A DNA stretch of 64,000 bases. It comes from Streptomyces flavotricini (GTDB lineage: Bacteria; Actinomycetota; Actinomycetes; Streptomycetales; Streptomycetaceae). How positions within the stretch are numbered: position 1 is the stretch's first letter; each line of letters starts with the position of its first letter. Positions 6,371 through 16,991 of the stretch are shown here, piece after piece. The notes under the pieces are model-generated. The model was not told the DNA's origin. It did no database searches and saw only the letters and a list, made by a program, of their open reading frames with translations. The position numbers and the translations under genes are program-made. The stretch spans positions 67,746 through 131,745 of the forward strand of contig NZ_JAINUL010000001.1 of the NCBI RefSeq assembly GCF_020639365.1, read 5' to 3'.

Positions 6371-6901
6371 TCAGTTTCTGCCCGTGCTCGTCGCGACCGG
6401 CTCCTGGAACGGTTCGAGGTCCGAAATCTCCGCCAGGGACAGATCCAGGGCCTCGTGGAGGAAGCGGACGATCGTCCAGTGCGGCAGGATGCCCTCGTCC
6501 ACCGGGCCGAATTCCGCGCAGTACAACGGAATCCAGCGCAGCGCCTCCTCGACGGCCCGCTCCCGGCCGGGGTCGGCCTGGTAGTCCTCGTACCCGATGC
6601 TGCGGTGGTGAATGAAGAAGCCCCCCGGGAGGCGCTCCTCGCACAGCGCCCGGTACTCGCGCGTCTGCAGGATGAGGAAGTGCCAGATCTCGTCGATGTC
6701 CTGCTCCACCGGGAGGAAGAGCCCGCCCAGGCGGTCCGGGTGCGCGGAGACCAGGTAGAGGTAGCGCATGCATTCCAGCACCTGGCGTTCGGCGTACGGA
6801 CGCCGTACGCCGGTGCGGCGCTGCGCATGGCGGACCGCTTCCTCGTGGAGCGGCTCCCCGAGGAGGGTGCGCAGCGCGTCGGGCGTCGTACGGGGGCTCA
6901 T
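6371..6901 (-). CDS. Putative RiPP-associated protein with a DxxWH motif (glycine-rich-domain-protein-like)
   Basis: The protein has 176 residues, is soluble and has no signal peptide. Residues 68-100 carry the pattern DIDEIWHFLILQTREYRALC and then GGFFIHH. This resembles the Asp-x-x-Trp-His ... Tyr ... Cys ... His-His core of DUF1399/glycine-rich domain-containing proteins. That resemblance is from motif memory only, and conserved His/Asp/Cys residues could bind a metal. The ATG overlaps the stop of the adenylate-forming enzyme by four bases (ATGA), so the two are translationally coupled. The tripeptide-repeat gene 8365-8517 lies upstream in the same transcription unit. A role in modifying that peptide is inference. 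Confidence 0.7.
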   Translation of the reverse strand: MSPRTTPDALRTLLGEPLHEEAVRHAQRRTGVRRPYAERQVLECMRYLYLVSAHPDRLGGLFLPVEQDIDEIWHFLILQTREYRALCEERLPGGFFIHHRSIGYEDYQADPGRERAVEEALRWIPLYCAEFGPVDEGILPHWTIVRFLHEALDLSLAEISDLEPFQEPVATSTGRN

Positions 6902-8226
6902 GCGCCTCCTCCTCGGGGGTCCGCAGCCGTCGGTTCCCGGCTGTCAGCGGTTGCCAGCCAGGCGTACTTGCCTGACGCGCCGATCGGCAGGTGGGCGGTG
7001 TGCTCGGTGCTGGAGGGTCGCCCGGTGAGGGCGGTCACCGCGGCGGCGAGCGCGGCGTCCCGGCCTTCGGCGGGCGGGCGCCCGTCGAAGGTGGTGTAGC
7101 GCAGCAGCGCCGCCGAGCCGGGGCCGCCGTGCGTTTCCAGGCGGTAGAGGAAGACCTCCGGCGCGACGGCGGCCACGCGGTCGTCGAGGTCGGCCTGGGC
7201 GACGGGCCCGTGCGGGGTCTCCAGCAGCTCCTTCTCGCGCCCGCAGAACGCGACGACCTTCGCCGGGTCGGCGCTGCCGTCCGAGGTGCGCACGCAGTCG
7301 CCCGAGCGGTAGCGCACCAGCGGCATGTACGGGTTGCGGATGCTGGTGACGATCAGGCTGTGGATGCCGCTGCCGGGGGCCACGGGGACGAGCTCGATGC
7401 CCATGCGGTCCAGGTACGGGTGGTAGCGGCCGTCCCGGTCGCTGTAGTACAGGTACCCCAGCTCGGTGCTGCCGAAGAGATCGATCACCGGTACCCCGAA
7501 CCGCTCGGCGAGGTAGCGGCGAACGTTGGCCGGGGTGTACTCGTACGCGGTGACGACGCTGGCCGGCCGCGGGAACGTCTCGGGGCTCCACAGACCGAAC
7601 TCCTCGGCCCGGCGCGCCAGGTGGGCAAGGTGGTAACCCGAGCAGTCCAGGTGGTAGTCGCCGTCGGGGTGCGCCTCGGAGACCTCGCGGATCTCGGCCA
7701 GCATCCGCTCGACGTCGGCCCTGTCCCACTGCCCGGGGTCCAGGCGCAGGTTGAGGTACATGGTGCGCTCGTCGAGCCGGCGGTCCTCCAGCGTCGGGGT
7801 GGCGACCGGTTCGGTGCCTTTGCGGCGGGCGTTGACGCGGGCCACATGCTCGGTGGCGAGGACGGTCGTCAGCGAGACCCGCCGGCAGCCGCCCGCCCAG
7901 GTCTTCGCCAGGTCCGGGTGTTCGCTCCACAGCCGGTAGTAGGAGCGCAGCAGGAAGTACGGGGGCCGGATGAGCTGCATCCGGGCGTGGTGTGTGCCGG
8001 TCGACCAGACGTACTCGGCTTCGCCGGCGGCCAGCGCGGCGGCCAGGCGCGGGGTCATCCAGTTCTCCGGAAAGCCCTGCGCCATCGCGGGCTTCTCGAG
8101 GATGGGGAACGCGTCCAGGTCGAGCGCGGGGCGGTAGAGGGGGATGTCCCGAATGCAGTCGAGGACGTCGGCGACCTTCAGGCCGTCCGACTGGGGGATG
8201 CCGGTCGGGGTGGATGTGCCGTCCAT
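6898..8226 (-). CDS. Adenylate-forming enzyme (PaaK / coenzyme F390 synthetase / LuxE-like)
   Basis: The ANL-type signature is visible in order: a phosphate-loop-like WSTGTHHARMQ (about residues 76-86), FGSTELGYLYY (253-263), RYRSGD (307-312) and GREKELLETPHG (331-342). Enzymes of this family activate a carboxylate as acyl-AMP and pass it to a thiol or amine. The length (about 442 aa) is normal. The ATG at 8226 is preferred because GGAAAG lies just upstream; a GTG at 8232 is possible. It sits between a small peptide gene with GCIS repeats and the coupled DxxWH gene. The substrate could be the peptide C-terminus or Asp/Glu side chains, or a small acid attached to it; this is inference. Confidence 0.75.
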   Translation of the reverse strand: MDGTSTPTGIPQSDGLKVADVLDCIRDIPLYRPALDLDAFPILEKPAMAQGFPENWMTPRLAAALAAGEAEYVWSTGTHHARMQLIRPPYFLLRSYYRLWSEHPDLAKTWAGGCRRVSLTTVLATEHVARVNARRKGTEPVATPTLEDRRLDERTMYLNLRLDPGQWDRADVERMLAEIREVSEAHPDGDYHLDCSGYHLAHLARRAEEFGLWSPETFPRPASVVTAYEYTPANVRRYLAERFGVPVIDLFGSTELGYLYYSDRDGRYHPYLDRMGIELVPVAPGSGIHSLIVTSIRNPYMPLVRYRSGDCVRTSDGSADPAKVVAFCGREKELLETPHGPVAQADLDDRVAAVAPEVFLYRLETHGGPGSAALLRYTTFDGRPPAEGRDAALAAAVTALTGRPSSTEHTAHLPIGASGKYAWLATADSREPTAADPRGGGA

Positions 8227-8257
8227 GGCCACTTTCCGTAGCGGGGCAGGGGGATGG

Positions 8258-8287
8258 GTCCGCCCGGGGCGGGGCCCCGGGGCGGAC
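8258..8287 (-). terminator. Hairpin between peptide gene and enzyme genes (possible attenuator)
   Basis: An 8-bp stem (8258-8265 with 8280-8287) continues into a 5-bp stem (8266-8270 with 8274-8278), with one bulged G. It lies 78 bases after the peptide stop and 32 bases before the enzyme start. Such partial terminators often let a precursor be expressed more than its modifying enzymes. Confidence 0.55.
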
Positions 8288-8364
8288 GGACGGGGATCGT
8301 GGTCCCGTCTGCGCCGCGCCTCCGAGGGCCCCGCCGGCCGGGCGGTCAGGCCGGATCAGGTGCG

Positions 8365-8517
8365 TCAGGAGATGCAGCCGCTCTTGCCGGCGAGGCTGAT
8401 GCAGCCCTCCTTGGGCGAGGCGCTGATACAGCCGTCCTTCGCGGACTGAGCCGAGTTGGCCTCGACCCAGCGGCGCCAGACGTCGTCCTGCGTCATGGTG
8501 CGAATGAGCTTCTCCAC
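8365..8517 (-). CDS. Putative RiPP precursor peptide with three GCIS repeats
   Basis: The 50-residue product starts at a GTG (8517) with GGAGG seven bases upstream. The first half (VEKLIRTMTQDDVWRRWVEA) is a charged amphipathic helix typical of a leader. The second half contains KDGCIS, KEGCIS and KSGCIS at residues 27-32, 36-41 and 45-50, an exact 9-residue period with the last repeat at the C-terminus. Each repeat contributes one Cys and one Ser. There is no membrane segment. It is the first gene of a unit with an adenylate-forming enzyme and a DxxWH protein. I do not recognise a described RiPP family with this core; the RiPP reading is inference from leader, repeats and context. Confidence 0.75.
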   Translation of the reverse strand: MEKLIRTMTQDDVWRRWVEANSAQSAKDGCISASPKEGCISLAGKSGCIS

Positions 8518-8575
8518 GGCGATACCTCCAGTGATGGGAAGACCATGGCATCGGTGTTTTCCACCGCCTCCCCGA

Positions 8576-8604
8576 AGGTAAAGAGAACGCCAAGTGCGAG
8601 TCAA
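8576..8604 (-). promoter_or_regulatory. Candidate promoter of the peptide operon
   Basis: On the minus strand, TTGACT (8604-8599) is followed after 17 bases by TTACCT (8581-8576). It lies about 60 bases upstream of the GTG at 8517, in a locally AT-richer stretch. The -10 box is poor, so this is tentative. Confidence 0.35.
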
Positions 8605-8691: not shown

Positions 8692-10149
8692 TCAGGGCCT
8701 CGCCGGAACCTCGATGGTGACCCCGCGCAGCTGCGCCCAGCCCTCCAGGGTGGTGCGGCAGGCGTGGTCCAGGTGGCGAAGCCCGGAGAGGTCAAGCTCC
8801 ACGGGGTGCCCCGAGGGCAGGGCTTCGAGGGTTTCGAGCATCCGGGGCAGCCGGAGGAAGGTGGCGGAACCGCTGAGGGTGACGAGGAACCGGCCGTCCG
8901 TCGTCTCATGCACGTCGAGGTGGACGTGCGAGGTCTCCCAGGCGCTCTTGGCCACGGCCAGGGCGATGCCGAACAGGACACCCTCGAACATGTTCGTGAC
9001 GATGATGGCGATCGCGGTGGCGGCCAGGACCAGGGCCTCGCCTCGGTGGTGGCGCCACAGGGGGAGCAGATCCTTGACGGGGATGAGCTTGCAGCCCGCG
9101 TGGACGAGGACGCCGGCGAGGGCGGCCAGGGGGATGACCCCGATCGCGGCCGGCAGGAGCGCGGCGAAGAGCACGAGCCACAGCCCGTGCAGGACACGGG
9201 AGAGCTTGGTCCTGGCTCCGGCCTGGACGTTGGCCGCGCTGCGCACGATGACGGCGGTCAGCGGCAGGGCGCCGAGCACGCCGCAGATGGCGTTGCCCGC
9301 GCCCTGCGCCATGAGCTCCTTGTCGAAGTCGGTCCGCGGGCCGTCGTGCATGCGGTCGACGGCGGCGGCGCTGAAGAGGCTTTCGGCCGAGGCGATCAGG
9401 GCGAAGGCGATGACCGTACCGACGGCCGCGAGGCTGCCCAGCGCGGCGAAGTCCGACAGTCCTGGCGGCTGGATGGCGGCGAGGAGTCCCTGTACGTCGA
9501 CGCGGGGGACCGACCAGCCGGCCGCGGCGGTGACCGCGGTGGCGAGCGCGACCGCGGCCAGAGGGGCGGGGACCGCCTGGACCTTGACCGGGAGCCTCTT
9601 CCAGAGGACGAGGACGGCGATGGTGGCCGCGCCGACGGCGAAGGAGGTCAGGACGGCGCCGGTGGAGGCGATCTCGGTGGCCAGCCGCGGAATCCCCGCG
9701 ATCTTGCCGAGTCCCGAACGGGGCTGCCCGACGCCGGCCATGGTGTAGAGCTGTCCGAAGATCAGGACGAGCCCGATCCCCGCGAGCATGCCCTGGACCA
9801 CGGCCACGGTGATCGCACGGAAGAACCGGCCGAACCGGAGTGCCCCCATGGCGAGTTGGGCGAGTCCGGACAGCAGGACGACAGCTCCCAGGGCGCCGAG
9901 ACCGAACTCCTGCACGGCTTCGAAGACCAGTACGGTCAGACCCGCGGCCGGGCCGCTGACCTGGAGGCTGCTGCCGGGCAGGCAGCCGACGACGAGACCG
10001 CCGACGATCCCGGTGACCAGTCCTAGTTCGGCGGGTACCCCGGAGGCGACGGCGACTCCGACACACAGGGGCAGGGCGACCAGGAAGACGACGAGCGAGG
10101 CCAGGAGGTCTCGTCGCAGATGGGCGGGCTTCTTGAGGGTGGAGAGCAT
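8692..10149 (-). CDS. SulP-family anion (probably bicarbonate) transporter
   Basis: The 485-residue protein has a long run of about 12 hydrophobic segments starting LLASLVVFLVALPLCVGVAV, with the SulP-type SGPAAGLTVLVF and a DFDKELMAQGAGNAICG segment. It ends in a hydrophilic STAS-like domain (HVHLDVHETTDGRFLVTLSG ... VELDLSGLRHLDHACRTTLE). The ATG at 10149 is preferred because GAGGAAG precedes it. A beta-carbonic anhydrase gene lies 73 bases upstream on the same strand. That pairing is common in bacteria and suggests bicarbonate uptake or CO2/bicarbonate homeostasis rather than sulfate transport. The substrate is inference from context. Confidence 0.88.
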   Translation of the reverse strand: MLSTLKKPAHLRRDLLASLVVFLVALPLCVGVAVASGVPAELGLVTGIVGGLVVGCLPGSSLQVSGPAAGLTVLVFEAVQEFGLGALGAVVLLSGLAQLAMGALRFGRFFRAITVAVVQGMLAGIGLVLIFGQLYTMAGVGQPRSGLGKIAGIPRLATEIASTGAVLTSFAVGAATIAVLVLWKRLPVKVQAVPAPLAAVALATAVTAAAGWSVPRVDVQGLLAAIQPPGLSDFAALGSLAAVGTVIAFALIASAESLFSAAAVDRMHDGPRTDFDKELMAQGAGNAICGVLGALPLTAVIVRSAANVQAGARTKLSRVLHGLWLVLFAALLPAAIGVIPLAALAGVLVHAGCKLIPVKDLLPLWRHHRGEALVLAATAIAIIVTNMFEGVLFGIALAVAKSAWETSHVHLDVHETTDGRFLVTLSGSATFLRLPRMLETLEALPSGHPVELDLSGLRHLDHACRTTLEGWAQLRGVTIEVPARP

Positions 10150-10222
10150 CAGTGGACTTCCTCGCACGGCGGAAGCGGAAGGGGAAGGCGGAAAGGCGGC
10201 CCGTGGGGAGGGCGGATGAGGG

Positions 10223-10816
10223 TCACAGCGGCCGGAAGGAGCTGGCGGCCGACTGGTACGCCCGCACGGCCCCGGTGTGGACCTCGTAGTACCAGGCGTG
10301 CACCGTCAAGGTCCCGGCCTCCACCCGTTCCGCCACACAGGGGTGCTCGTACAGCCGCTCCAGCTGGGCGACCGCGTGGCGCTGGACAGCCTCGGCGAGG
10401 TCCGGTGACAGGGGCGCCGTCGTCTCGGGCCGGCCGGCCGCGTGCTCCAGCCAGCTCCGAACGGCGGGCAGGCCGGAGAGGTCGCCGCCGCTCACCAGGG
10501 CGTTGACCGCCCCACAGTGCGAGTGCCCGCACACGATGACGTCGCGGACCCCCAGCACCCGTACCGCGTACTCGATGGTGGCCGTTTCGGCAGAAGGACG
10601 GCCGCCGCTGTACGCGGGGACGATGTTGCCCGCCGTCCGCAGCTCGAACAGCTCGCCCGGACGGGCGCCGGTGATCAGGGACGGCACCACCCGGGAGTCG
10701 GAACAGGCGATGAAGAGGACTTCGGGGCTCTGCCCGGCCTCGAGGGCGTGGAATTCCTGGGCACGTTCCGCCACGTGGGCCGTGAAGGACCGTGCGTTGT
10801 CAACCAGGGACTTCAT
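10223..10816 (-). CDS. Beta-class carbonic anhydrase
   Basis: The enzyme interconverts CO2 and bicarbonate in the cytoplasm with a zinc ion. The full signature is present: CSDSR with Cys38, Asp40 and Arg42, then HSHCGAV with His98 and Cys101 as the other zinc ligands. The length of 197 residues is typical. The start ATG at 10816 gives MKSLVDNARSF, a normal family N-terminus. It precedes the SulP transporter on the same strand and probably forms an operon with it, supplying or consuming the transported bicarbonate. Confidence 0.93.
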   Translation of the reverse strand: MKSLVDNARSFTAHVAERAQEFHALEAGQSPEVLFIACSDSRVVPSLITGARPGELFELRTAGNIVPAYSGGRPSAETATIEYAVRVLGVRDVIVCGHSHCGAVNALVSGGDLSGLPAVRSWLEHAAGRPETTAPLSPDLAEAVQRHAVAQLERLYEHPCVAERVEAGTLTVHAWYYEVHTGAVRAYQSAASSFRPL

Positions 10817-11085: not shown

Positions 11086-11317
11086 TTTCGACGACAATGC
11101 GTTCGGGTGCAGGACCCCCCGGAAGGAGGTGGCCGACGAGCCACCCCCACTTCCCACAACGCCGGACATGCACCAGGATGTCGCTCCCGTGCCGCCGCGC
11201 CCCCGCGCACCCGCCGGCTCCTCGCGCGGCGACCGCACCCACCACCGCACCCGCCACTGCCGACGCCGCCCCCGACGGGGCGGCCCGCCTGCCGCGTGCG
11301 GGGAGATGGAGCAATCG

Positions 11318-12952
11318 ATGGGAACCACCACCGCCGCCGGCGCCGACCGGGTCGACGCCGTCGTCGTCGGCGCCGGGCTCTCGGGGCTCTACCAGCTGTA
11401 CCGGCTGCGTGCGCTCGGCTTACGGGTAGCGGTCTTCGAGGCCGGCGAGGACATCGGCGGGACCTGGTACTGGAACCGTTATCCCGGCGCACGCTGCGAC
11501 GTCGAAAGCATGTCGTACTCGTACTCCTTCTCCCCCGAACTGGACCAGGAGTGGGAGTGGAGCGAGCGGTACGCGTCCCAGCCGGAGATCCTGCGCTACA
11601 TCCACCACGTCGCCGACCGCTTCGGCCTGCGCGGGGACGTCACCCTGCGTACCCGTGTCACGAGCGCCGCGTACGACGGCACCACGCACACCTGGCGCGT
11701 CTCCACGGACACCGGGCGCACCGTCACCACCCGGTTCCTCGTCCTGGCCTCGGGCTGCATGTCGGCACCCAAGGACCCCGGAATACCCGGGCAGAACAGC
11801 TTCACGGGCGAGGTCCTGCACACAGCCCGCTGGCCGAGCGAGGAGGTCTCCTTCACCGGCAAGCGGGTCGCCGTCATCGGGACCGGGTGCTCCGGGGTCC
11901 AGGCCGTCCCCGTGATCGCCGAGCGGGCGGCCGCGCTCACCGTCTTCCAGCGCACCCCGGCCTACGCGCTGCCCGCCCACAACCGCCCGCTGCTCGGCGC
12001 CGAGACCGCCGAGCTCAAGGCCCGGTACCCGCAGTTCCGCCAGGCCCAGCGGCTCTCCCGGGGCGGTACCGTCTTCGAACCGCCGACCGGTTCCGCCCTG
12101 GCGGCCGACGAGGCGGAGCGGACGGCCGCCTACGAGGCGGCCTGGGGGTCGGGACTGCTCAGCGGGCTCCTCCGCACGTACACCGACATCCTGACCGACG
12201 AGAAGGCCAACGCGACGGTGGCCGAGTTCGTCCGGTCCAAGATCCGGTCGATCATCGACGACGCGGAGACGGCCGAGGCGCTCTCCCCGCGCACGTTCCC
12301 GTTCGCGACGAAGCGCCCCTGCCTGGACACCGGCTATTACGCCGCCTACAACCTGCCCCACGTGATGCTGGTGGACCTCCGCGCGACCCCGATCGAGACG
12401 ATCACGCCACGGGGGATCCTGACCACGGAAGAAGAACACGCCCTCGACACGATCGTCTTCGCCACGGGCTTCGACGCGCTGACCGGATCCCAGCTCGCCA
12501 TCGACATCGTGGGCAGCGCCGGCGTGAGCTTGAGGGAGAAGTGGGCGGACGGCCCCCGCAACCACCTCGGGCTCATGTCGGCGGGCTTCCCCAACCTCTT
12601 CACCGTGCTCGGCCCGCTCAGCCCGTCCGTCCTCAGCAACATCGCGGTCTCCCTTGAGCAGCAGGTGGAGTGGATCACCGACTGCATCGCCCACCTGATC
12701 GGCCGCGGCCTCACGGAAATCGATGCCACTCCGGAGGCGGAGGAGGCCTGGGGCGCCCACGTCGCGGAGCTCGCGGACCGGACACTGTACCCGACGGCGG
12801 AATCCTGGTACATGGGATCCAACGTCCCCGGAAAGCCGAAGGTGTTCCTGGCCTACACCGGCGGGCTGGACCGGTACCGGGCCGTGTGCGACGCGGCGGC
12901 CCGAAACGGCTACAGCGGCTTCGTCCTCTCCGGCGACGCCCGCGAACGATGA
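11318..12952 (+). CDS. Flavin-dependent Baeyer-Villiger monooxygenase
   Basis: The product is about 544 residues. It has the FAD Rossmann motif VVVGAGLSGLY at about residue 15, the family hallmark GGTWYWNRYPGARCD, the Baeyer-Villiger fingerprint FTGEVLHTARWP, and a second dinucleotide-binding motif VIGTGCSG for NADPH. Such enzymes insert oxygen next to ketones to give esters or lactones, as cyclohexanone monooxygenase does. The ATG at 11318 is chosen because GGAG lies six bases upstream and the length then equals the family norm. An ATG at 11306 is also possible, and the longer upstream frame is low-complexity. The natural ketone cannot be told from sequence. Confidence 0.9.
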   Translation: MGTTTAAGADRVDAVVVGAGLSGLYQLYRLRALGLRVAVFEAGEDIGGTWYWNRYPGARCDVESMSYSYSFSPELDQEWEWSERYASQPEILRYIHHVADRFGLRGDVTLRTRVTSAAYDGTTHTWRVSTDTGRTVTTRFLVLASGCMSAPKDPGIPGQNSFTGEVLHTARWPSEEVSFTGKRVAVIGTGCSGVQAVPVIAERAAALTVFQRTPAYALPAHNRPLLGAETAELKARYPQFRQAQRLSRGGTVFEPPTGSALAADEAERTAAYEAAWGSGLLSGLLRTYTDILTDEKANATVAEFVRSKIRSIIDDAETAEALSPRTFPFATKRPCLDTGYYAAYNLPHVMLVDLRATPIETITPRGILTTEEEHALDTIVFATGFDALTGSQLAIDIVGSAGVSLREKWADGPRNHLGLMSAGFPNLFTVLGPLSPSVLSNIAVSLEQQVEWITDCIAHLIGRGLTEIDATPEAEEAWGAHVAELADRTLYPTAESWYMGSNVPGKPKVFLAYTGGLDRYRAVCDAAARNGYSGFVLSGDARER

Positions 12953-15419: not shown

Positions 15420-16991
15420 GTGACCCCTGTCAGCCCCGCCGCACGCCGCGCCTTGGCCGTGGGCTTAACCCTCGCCGCCTGCCTCACGTCCTCCCCCGTC
15501 CTGGCCACGGCCGCCGAGACCCCCGCCCAGGACAGCTCCGAGGCTGGACTCGACCGGTACTACCGCCAGCACCTCGGCTGGGGCAGCTGCATCAAGGGCC
15601 CCGACGACACCACGGGCCGCGATCTGGACCAGGCAGGCGTGCAGTGCGCGGACGTGACCGTGCCCCTGGACTACGCCGACCCCCGGGGGCGCACGATCAC
15701 CGTGGCGATCTCCCGGCTCAAGGCCACCGACACCCGCCACCGCACCGGCGCGATCCTCCTCAACAACGGCGGTCCGGGCGGTCCCGCGCTCCAGTCCCCG
15801 CCGCAGGCCCGTGCGTCGATGAAGGAGGTCGGCGCGCGCTACGACATCGTCGGCTTCGACCCGCGCTTCATCGGGCGCAGCACCGCGCTGGACTGCGGCT
15901 TGCCCGTCGGCATGACCTGGCTGTCCGCCGGCACCGGCCGGGCGGGCTTCGACCGCCAGGTCACCCTGCAGAAAGGCCTGGCCGACAAGTGCCGGGCCAC
16001 CGACGCCGCGGTGCTCCCCCACATCACCACCCGCAACACGGCCCGCGACATGGACGTCATCCGCGGCACGCTCGGCGAGCGGAAGATCTCCTTCCTGGGC
16101 TACTCGTACGGCACCTACCTGGGCACGGTCTACACGCAGATGTTCCCCGGCCGATACGACCGGATGGTGCTGGACGGGGCGATCAACCCGAACGACTACC
16201 GCCCCCGGCTGCTGAAGGGCACCGAGCTCGAGAACGAGAAGGCGCTGTCCGACTGGGCCGCCTGGGCCGCGGAACACCACGACACCTACGGCCTCGGCCG
16301 CAGCCGCGCCGAGGTGCTCGCCACCGTCGACCGCATCGTCGCGGCGGCCGCGCGCGGTCCGCTGACCATCGGCGCCGGCGCCGATGCCTTCCGGATCGAC
16401 GACAGCCAGGTGCCGCTCCTCTTCTTCTCGGGCATCGCGGACGACACCGCCCCGGCGCGGGCGTCGTTCGGCGAGCTGCTGTCCGTACTGGCCAAAGCCG
16501 CGCAGGGCCGCCCGACGACGGTGCCGCCGATGCTCGTCCCGGAGCTCCGGTACGTGCTGCGCGGTGAGGGCGAGCCCACCGGCGCGCAGTCCGCCGTCAT
16601 CTGCGGGGACGTGGCCGCCGCGCGCGATCCCGAGCTCTACTGGCGGGACATCGAGCGCAACCGCATCGCGCACCCGCTGTTCGGCGCTCTGACCAACAAC
16701 ATCAACCCGTGCGCCTTCTGGGACTCGCCGCGCGAAGAGCCCACCCGGGTGCGGCGCGATGCCCCTGCATTGATCGTCGCCGCCACCGGTGACCCGCGTA
16801 CGACGTACAAGGGAAGCGTCGAGCTCCACAAGCAGCTGCCGAGCTCCAGGCTGGTCACCCTTGAGGGCGCCAACCGGCACGCCCTTTTCGGGCGCTACGG
16901 CAACGCGTGCGTGGACGACCAGGTCAACCGGTACCTGGCCACCGGCAAGCTGCCGGCGAGGGACCAGACCTGCGTCAAGCAAGCGGGATAG
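15420..16991 (+). CDS. Secreted alpha/beta hydrolase, tripeptidyl-aminopeptidase type
   Basis: The 523-residue precursor starts at a GTG with AAGGAG six bases upstream. It has a signal peptide (LAVGLTLAACLTSSPVLATA). Catalytic features are in order: an oxyanion-type NNGGPGGPA, nucleophile Ser229 in GYSYGT, a C-terminal acid in ATGDPRTTY and the His in ANRHALFG. This layout matches Streptomyces tripeptidyl aminopeptidases and the related mycelium-associated proteases, which remove N-terminal tripeptides from extracellular proteins. Paired cysteines (SCIKGP, QCADV, DKCRAT, NPCAFW, NACVDD, QTCVKQ) fit an extracellular enzyme. Single gene. Confidence 0.88.
   Translation: MTPVSPAARRALAVGLTLAACLTSSPVLATAAETPAQDSSEAGLDRYYRQHLGWGSCIKGPDDTTGRDLDQAGVQCADVTVPLDYADPRGRTITVAISRLKATDTRHRTGAILLNNGGPGGPALQSPPQARASMKEVGARYDIVGFDPRFIGRSTALDCGLPVGMTWLSAGTGRAGFDRQVTLQKGLADKCRATDAAVLPHITTRNTARDMDVIRGTLGERKISFLGYSYGTYLGTVYTQMFPGRYDRMVLDGAINPNDYRPRLLKGTELENEKALSDWAAWAAEHHDTYGLGRSRAEVLATVDRIVAAAARGPLTIGAGADAFRIDDSQVPLLFFSGIADDTAPARASFGELLSVLAKAAQGRPTTVPPMLVPELRYVLRGEGEPTGAQSAVICGDVAAARDPELYWRDIERNRIAHPLFGALTNNINPCAFWDSPREEPTRVRRDAPALIVAATGDPRTTYKGSVELHKQLPSSRLVTLEGANRHALFGRYGNACVDDQVNRYLATGKLPARDQTCVKQAG

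Follow-up and report, generated by a model that had tools for sequence, protein, structure and literature searches.

A 64,000-nucleotide stretch of the Streptomyces flavotricini genome (assembly GCF_020639365.1, contig NZ_JAINUL010000001.1, positions 67,746 to 131,745), referred to below as the window, contains a three-gene unit about 2.2 kb long on its minus strand. The genes encode a 50-residue peptide with three copies of a Gly-Cys-Ile-Ser (GCIS) motif, a PaaK-like adenylate-forming (ANL) enzyme and a protein characterized by the motif DxxWH. The unit is real, conserved and apparently undescribed, and has the anatomy of systems that make ribosomally synthesized and post-translationally modified peptides (RiPPs). 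The recurrence of the three genes in other genomes indicates that they almost certainly form one functional unit, and the peptide is very probably a precursor or scaffold that is modified. We prefer the reading of an undescribed RiPP-like system whose ANL enzyme acylates every repeat, probably on the Cys residue; it is a tentative one, to which we assign somewhat less than an even chance.

The peptide gene occupies positions 8365-8517 and starts with GTG. A leader of approximately residues 1-23 is followed by three K-x-G-C-I-S repeats, the GCIS portions of which span residues 29-32 (8422-8433), 38-41 (8395-8406) and 47-50 (8368-8379), the last of them being the C terminus. The original prediction put the outer edge of this gene at 8604, but at that position the open frame merely has its first TTG. 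The start is placed at 8517 because a ribosome-binding site (GGAGG at 8525-8529, 7 nucleotides upstream of the GTG) and the beginning of the homolog alignment are found there. A spacer (8233-8364) with a strong predicted hairpin, a candidate attenuator or 3' stabiliser, leads to the enzyme gene (6898-8232; 444 residues, with a possible inner ATG start at 8226), which is overlapped by the gene of the DxxWH protein (6371-6901; 176 residues) over four bases, 6898-6901. All three frames were found where the prediction had described them, running in the same direction and with this overlap. In Pfam, the enzyme and the DxxWH protein have no match and the peptide has only a chance match (0.09). A PADLOC search with just the three cassette proteins of the window gave nothing above the cut-off, and a promoter scan was empty.

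Relatives of the enzyme were collected by a single-protein query, which reaches close relatives only, from 84,980 species represented by one genome each. The resulting 35 loci are spread across three phyla: 27 are from Streptomyces, three from Paraburkholderia (one a metagenome-assembled genome) and one each from Kitasatospora, Amycolatopsis, Sinosporangium, Burkholderia and Sorangium. An intact peptide gene stands beside the enzyme gene in 33 of the 35, and a DxxWH gene was detected in 34. The two remaining loci are decayed in the peptide and the DxxWH gene together. In S. benahoarensis (L053:5000-6465) only a short remnant of the peptide frame is left, and the DxxWH gene is fused to a fragment of the enzyme; in Sinosporangium (L054:9780-10010) the peptide gene is frameshifted and a DxxWH gene could not be found. 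In one further locus (L051) the enzyme frame appears to be shifted.

A profile of the DxxWH protein gave 36 strong hits (E ≤ 7.5e-80) in 295 Streptomyces genomes, the window's own included, and the enzyme and the peptide accompany all 36 (35 other loci and the window); in one of these genomes, G017, the cassette is split across two contigs. A peptide profile gave 37 strong hits in the same sample, namely in these 36 genomes and in G105, where the peptide lies about 30 nucleotides from a contig end and the DxxWH hit is only weak. Four further peptide hits were weak (E 6e-4 to 3e-3) and are outside the 37. The cassette is present in about one in eight of the sampled Streptomyces genomes (37/295), and also occurs in Burkholderiaceae and Sorangium. 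In a sample of 296 genomes from the phylum, the only strong DxxWH hit was that of the window, and a plasmid collection held only distant ligases, every one below 60% identity. Enzyme and DxxWH genes that lack such a peptide gene had been named as the observation that would undermine the proposal. Instead the three genes travel together in both surveys, and the two exceptions combine a broken peptide with a missing or fused DxxWH gene.

The members of the cassette also diverge together, as distances correlate between enzyme and DxxWH protein (r 0.83, 30 loci) and between leader and enzyme (r 0.65, 28 loci). Three alignments were made: A1 (32 rows) omits L037, L040, L053 and L054; A2 (31 rows) omits L035, L037, L040, L051 and L053; and A3 (31 rows) omits L030, L040, L047, L053 and L054. 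In the midpoint-rooted tree of the enzyme, the sequences from Burkholderiaceae, Sorangium and Amycolatopsis cluster with support of 98/93, the Amycolatopsis branch being long; this grouping suggests that the cassette has been transferred between phyla.

The peptide was compared in 70 loci, which contain 61 distinct peptides. The leader pattern resembles MEQLIKKMAQDxVWQxWVAANSA, and its residues Met1, Leu4, Trp14, Trp17, Asn21 and Ser22 are invariant in 31 aligned peptides ranging from Streptomyces to Sorangium and Burkholderiaceae. The repeat number is 2, 3, 4 or 7 (in 4, 48, 8 and 1 peptides, respectively), and the expectation that it would vary while the leader is conserved was thus borne out. 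The concern that the peptide frame might not be conserved in relatives proved unfounded, for it is kept across the three phyla. All 191 repeats contain GC[IV]S, with Ile in 175 and Val in 16. A Lys two positions before the Gly is found in 184 of them (55/61 first and 129/130 later repeats); five of the six first repeats that lack it come from the four Burkholderiaceae and Sorangium, and the sixth, in L038, has Arg. The spacers between repeats are 3-10 residues long, most commonly 5 (91/130). The last GC[IV]S is the exact C-terminal end of 57 peptides, two of the other four having an extra Arg, one QAG and one (L104) a degenerate final repeat. Inside the motif four codons are used for Gly, two for Cys and five for Ser, the latter from both the AGY and TCN families. 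Because these codons switch synonymously, the motif is conserved as amino acids. GGAGG is found close upstream of 59 of the 61 starts.

The 61 peptides combine the small size of a precursor with a conserved leader and a distinct repeat core in the second half, and a linked, co-evolving enzyme gene presumably acts on them. These are the hallmarks from which ribosomally made, modified peptides had been predicted at this locus, and to this extent the prediction holds. The term 'RiPP-like' is used rather than 'RiPP', which is unproven. None of the NCBIfam precursor models reaches its cut-off in the 31 members searched: the best value, E 0.0038, belongs to an unrelated model (7 members), and an NHLP-related model gave E 0.16 in one member.

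The enzyme is predicted to have the PaaK fold. Its AlphaFold model (mean predicted local distance difference test score, pLDDT, 86.1) has as structural neighbors BT_0428 (Z 24.3), PaaK1 (23.9), ClxA (23.7), NatL2 (21.9) and AjiA1 (21.7), and the predicted similarity extends over the whole length, with 348-361 residues aligned to the first three, although the identity over the structural alignments is about 14-22%. Gly254, Ser255, Glu257, Arg307, Tyr308, Gly311, Asp312 and Lys422 are invariant in 31 enzyme rows and Thr256 is nearly so. The motifs GSTELG, RYRSGD and GRE are retained together with Lys422, in agreement with the GSTE and RYRxGD signatures and the C-terminal Lys of the family. The earlier label 'PaaK/LuxE-like' has been narrowed to PaaK-like: the structural neighbors, all PaaK-family ligases, support its first half. 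The nearest non-cassette ligases, from five genomes, reach just 23-27 bits, so the cassette enzymes look like an isolated clade; there was no DxxWH hit within the stretches of about 12 kb around those ligases. The enzyme gave 27.5 bits with the BagE/FevW model of NCBIfam, for which the cut-off is 800. Of the structural neighbors, ClxA is described as a ligase making amide and ester bonds (PMC12519233). Elsewhere (L149:1345-7948), a PaaK-like ligase gene lies beside GriI/GriH-like genes (3-amino-4-hydroxybenzoate; assigned by eye) and a gene for a flavin adenine dinucleotide-dependent hydroxylase, a set that could give an aminohydroxybenzoate-derived product.

The DxxWH protein is all-helical, without a single strand, in a predicted model with a mean pLDDT of 88.5. 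Nothing similar was found in Pfam, NCBIfam or, by sequence or fold, in the Protein Data Bank, which does not in itself prove a new fold. A RiPP recognition element, which is a winged-helix domain with β-strands, was considered only for the model of this protein, in which such strands are absent. Of the 'DxxWH...HH core' described originally, DxxWH is confirmed, but of HH only the second His: in the 32-row alignment Asp70, Trp73, His74, Cys87 and His99 are invariant, and the first His of the pair, next to His99, is often replaced by Glu or Gln. Some DxxWH hit occurs in 98 of the 295 Streptomyces genomes, including the 36 strong ones. In 20 distant relatives (18 from Streptomyces, 2 from elsewhere in the phylum) Asp70, Trp73, His74, Thr80 and Cys87 are present without exception and His99 is kept in 18, the other two being gapped. 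Since the set of Asp, His, Cys and His is conserved, a bound metal is suggested, probably held by Asp70, His74, Cys87 and His99.

Two further genes are associated with the cassette. The next gene on the same strand encodes a transporter of the major facilitator superfamily (MFS) in 26 of the 34 large loci with a DxxWH call, and overlaps by four bases in 10 of the 26 (set A; 36 loci, of which L050 and L054 lack a DxxWH call, with genes called by a script using codon-position GC content). In a second set of 36 loci, many from the same species, the corresponding count is 25 of 33 (set B; L109, L110 and L112 lack a DxxWH call and L115 lies at a contig end). The MFS exporter is common but not universal. 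The other gene encodes a Baeyer-Villiger-type flavin monooxygenase, which in the window is on the plus strand (11306-12952) and lies upstream of the peptide gene at a distance of about 3 kb; its nearest curated model is PtlE, with 298 bits where the cut-off is 1100. Of 36 large loci, four have it close to the cassette (the window, L042, L045 from Sorangium and L050 from Amycolatopsis), and in G017 it adjoins the MFS gene. Close copies (E ≤ 1e-200) occur in 8 of the 37 carriers of the cassette and in 1 of the 258 other genomes (Fisher p 2.4e-7, relatedness ignored); four first-look candidates were scored per genome, in the same way for carriers and others. The presence of the monooxygenase in carriers even without linkage speaks for a functional tie and makes it an optional partner of the cassette. 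The linkage to both genes, like the three-gene unit and the leader/repeat anatomy, is evident from comparison of the sequences.

In the mechanism that we propose, the peptide would be a multi-core precursor: its leader of about 23 residues would recruit the enzymes, and every GC[IV]S repeat would serve as one modification site. ANL enzymes form acyl-AMP, and PaaK relatives act on small free acids. Using adenosine triphosphate (ATP), the cassette enzyme would convert a small carboxylic acid to acyl-AMP and transfer the acyl moiety to one nucleophile in every repeat. The thiol of the Cys would be the likeliest acceptor, and from there the group might move on to the Lys three positions before the Cys or to the Ser two positions after it. 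The DxxWH protein would be the indispensable partner of the enzyme, acting in the binding of the substrate or in a subsequent reaction. The monooxygenase of some strains may tailor the acyl group or the product, and in most strains the MFS pump would export the latter. Host proteases could cut at the Lys between repeats, freeing the units. Acylation is the leading reading because the enzyme family activates small acids, the repeats offer Cys, Ser and Lys, and the transporter and monooxygenase fit a small or acylated product. That the repeat is indeed acylated is nevertheless a little less probable than that it is not.

A number of observations weigh against this mechanism. No modification or product has been seen. 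The P-loop of the enzyme reads STGT(H/N)HARM and not the canonical (S/T)SGTTG (the outgroup ligases have SSGT(T/A)GxPT in four cases and TSGTSGEP in one), and the region is poorly modelled, with a pLDDT below 50 at residues 78-90. The best NCBIfam score, with the DVU1553 ligase model, is 32.1 bits against a cut-off of 300, and a sequence search of the Protein Data Bank gave a best E of 1.4e-7. Adenylation itself is not certain, because the similarity to PaaK is weak and the P-loop is both atypical and poorly modelled. On the side of the peptide, the core hardly varies here, unlike that of most RiPPs. In leader codons 2-22 non-synonymous differences outnumber synonymous ones (13,453 versus 5,225 over all pairs), a simple count by which the leader is under only partial constraint overall; third positions are the most variable. 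The partner genes are not constant either. The MFS gene is not adjacent in 8 of the 34 loci, the window among them, and in nine genomes without an adjacent copy the best relatives are 42-45% identical in five (43% in the window's own genome) and absent at E 1e-40 in four, compared to 75% in a control carrier, G035. In only four of its eight carriers (G000, G017, G147 and G274) does the monooxygenase lie no more than about 10 kb from the cassette; it is unlinked in G114, G139, G205 and G211. Finally, no dedicated protease was found among the ten flanking genes of the window (by Pfam) or in the neighbor clusters shared by five or more loci, which were judged by eye and not profile-annotated. Many RiPPs rely on host proteases.

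We rank the readings in the order acylation, thioester carrier, activation of the peptide's own carboxylate, metal role and attenuator. The second of these is unlikely, but has the most in its favor among the alternatives. The peptide would be a carrier or scaffold, the Cys residues of which each hold an activated acyl group as a thioester, in the manner of the phosphopantetheine of carrier proteins; partner enzymes would work on the group, the small molecule would be released and exported, and the peptide itself would not be the product. The invariance of the motif, as spacers and copy number change freely, agrees with such a role, as do the MFS pump (pumps of this type mostly carry small molecules) and the monooxygenase, which fits a non-peptide group. 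The ten flanking genes of the window contain no peptide exporter of the ATP-binding cassette type and no dedicated protease. However, inspection by eye of the shared neighbor clusters and of the next gene revealed no gene for chain building or for a thioesterase, and a carrier leaves unexplained both the Lys of nearly all repeats and the exact C-terminal end of most peptides. Its most specific version is a touch less likely again: a ribosomal multi-thiol carrier on which the acid is loaded as a thioester of the Cys itself, with no phosphopantetheine in between, a peptide of 50 residues thereby taking the place of carrier-protein domains in making an exported small molecule.

It is improbable that the enzyme activates the carboxylate of the peptide itself, closing a ring or an imide as a functional analog of the ThiF-like MccB/EnfB or of ATP-grasp systems. 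Formation of acyl-AMP by ANL enzymes and the Ser of the last repeat as the terminal residue of 57 of the 61 peptides would suit this chemistry, but PaaK relatives use small free acids, a peptide with several equal repeats has only one C terminus, four of the peptides lack an intact GC[IV]S end, and the motif has no acidic side chain. A precedent is EnfB, which activates a peptide C terminus to give a macrocyclic imide (PMC12250964).

A metal or redox peptide is more improbable still. Here the Cys repeats would bind a metal or oxidise, the DxxWH protein would be a metallochaperone and the ligase would supply a small ligand. The Asp/His/Cys/His set of the 20 distant DxxWH relatives points in this direction; most of them have Cys-rich tails and one lies beside genes resembling CsoR, CopA and CopZ (named by eye). 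On the other hand, neither the shared neighbor clusters nor the next gene of the cassette showed, by eye, anything recognisable as a transporter of metals or a metal regulator, and the Ser and Gly of the motif are as invariant as the Cys.

The spacer between peptide and enzyme genes forms a predicted hairpin that is stronger than in shuffled sequences, with z of -3.08 in the window and a mean of -2.6 in the relatives (z below -2 in 17 of 26 and above 0 in two; 26 of 35 loci, 60 shuffles per locus). This hairpin may set an excess of precursor over enzyme. That the peptide is a mere regulatory leader, a Cys- or Ser-codon attenuator of the enzyme operon, is hardly credible in spite of the hairpin, since six leader residues are invariant in 31 peptides and the motif codons switch synonymously, those of Ser included.

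The cassette has much in common with RiPP systems as a class: a short peptide with an N-terminal leader and a Cys/Ser repeat part, an adjacent enzyme that probably uses ATP, and usually an exporter gene. It differs from them in that its core is nearly invariant, no dedicated protease was recognised, and the pair of PaaK-like ligase and DxxWH protein fits no class found. Closest to it are RiPPs with multi-core precursors and the fixed-core small-molecule RiPPs, examples being cyanobactins, dikaritins, pyrroloquinoline quinone and mycofactocin. We know of no RiPP class with this enzyme set. The same statement in the original prediction stands, as neither such a class nor any RiPP made with the help of a PaaK-like ligase is described among the matches listed in the open-access literature, although subscription papers could contain a description. 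The main text of the decRiPPter paper (PMC7794033) has no mention of adenylat-, AMP-binding or phenylacetate.

The aryl-acid ligases of the PaaK family (ClxA, NatL2, AjiA1 and BagE/FevW) share most core motifs with the cassette enzyme, and the first three also its predicted fold, but the cassette enzyme has an altered P-loop and is partnered by a ribosomal peptide and the DxxWH protein. ThiF-like adenylating enzymes have a protein fold different from the PaaK type, and peptide aminoacyl-tRNA ligases (PEARLs) are relatives of lantibiotic dehydratases that use aminoacyl-tRNA at a C terminus. With MccB/EnfB the shared idea is adenylation as the activating step on or for a peptide (PMC12250964); EnfB acts at a single C terminus, whereas the cassette peptide has repeated sites. 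With PEARL systems (PMC11212132) it is the ribosomal peptide as a platform, and no PEARL-type gene is present among the cassette and flanking genes scanned here.

It is of significance that the peptide and the DxxWH protein are unmatched by Pfam, NCBIfam or PADLOC, and that one member of a widespread unnamed DxxWH family has gained a conserved gene context. If the proposed chemistry is true, a PaaK-type adenylating enzyme acts on a ribosomal peptide, a reaction absent from the matches listed in the open-access literature, and the repeat design provides a natural count of modification sites.

The surroundings of the cassette were also analysed. According to the original prediction, no LanC, YcaO, radical SAM or protease gene is nearby. 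The first three are indeed missing by Pfam, in the form of lanthionine cyclase, YcaO and radical SAM domains, among the cassette genes, the monooxygenase and ten neighboring window genes. The protease part needs to be qualified: no dedicated one was recognised, but 15459-16991 encodes an α/β hydrolase with a TAP-like domain (Pfam), of a family that includes exopeptidases. Directly upstream of the peptide gene are genes for a SulP-type permease and a carbonic anhydrase (8692-10816). They were considered as part of the cassette and set aside, because close SulP relatives are frequent in genomes that lack the cassette (19 of the 41 that gave a match); a SulP gene is near 11 of the 36 large loci, on either side. 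No second locus common to the unlinked monooxygenase copies was found. About 5 kb from the copy in G205 is a set that looks by eye like a lasso-peptide cluster (L139:132-2864; a 41-residue precursor, a 611-residue gene product and two small genes).

The wider DxxWH family is dominated by small proteins with Cys in their tails. At least two Cys are present in the C-terminal tail of 19 of the 20 distant relatives (by eye), which were taken from loci L116-L135; the tails are mostly rich in Cys and Gly (e.g. CNPPACCGDGGGCGGG), and such proteins are widespread in the genus. In Streptomyces they share Asp70, Trp73, His74, Thr80, Cys87 and mostly His99 with the cassette member, but have a tail that the latter lacks and other gene neighbors. 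Four that were tested have no Pfam or NCBIfam match, and to our knowledge the family has no known function. The 20 loci were also searched for a clue to the cassette, namely short frames with two Cys-x-Ser/Thr motifs; this gave only three frames that look like chance, none of them a GC[IV]S peptide, and was abandoned. The small Cys-tailed proteins might be substrates or metal proteins themselves. By eye, several of their genes have an XRE-like regulator gene nearby, and 46 plasmid records, 37 of these from Streptomyces, contain relatives of one such protein. In one locus (L116:3309-7462) the DxxWH gene is divergent to the CsoR-, CopA- and CopZ-like genes mentioned above, which hints at a link to metals. 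In another (L121:5059-7438), genes for a radical SAM protein (PF04055, E 1.8e-14), a 40-residue peptide ending in GCGNDNPF, a 158-residue protein and a Cys-tailed DxxWH protein stand in a row, a candidate for another peptide-maturation cluster with a DxxWH member.

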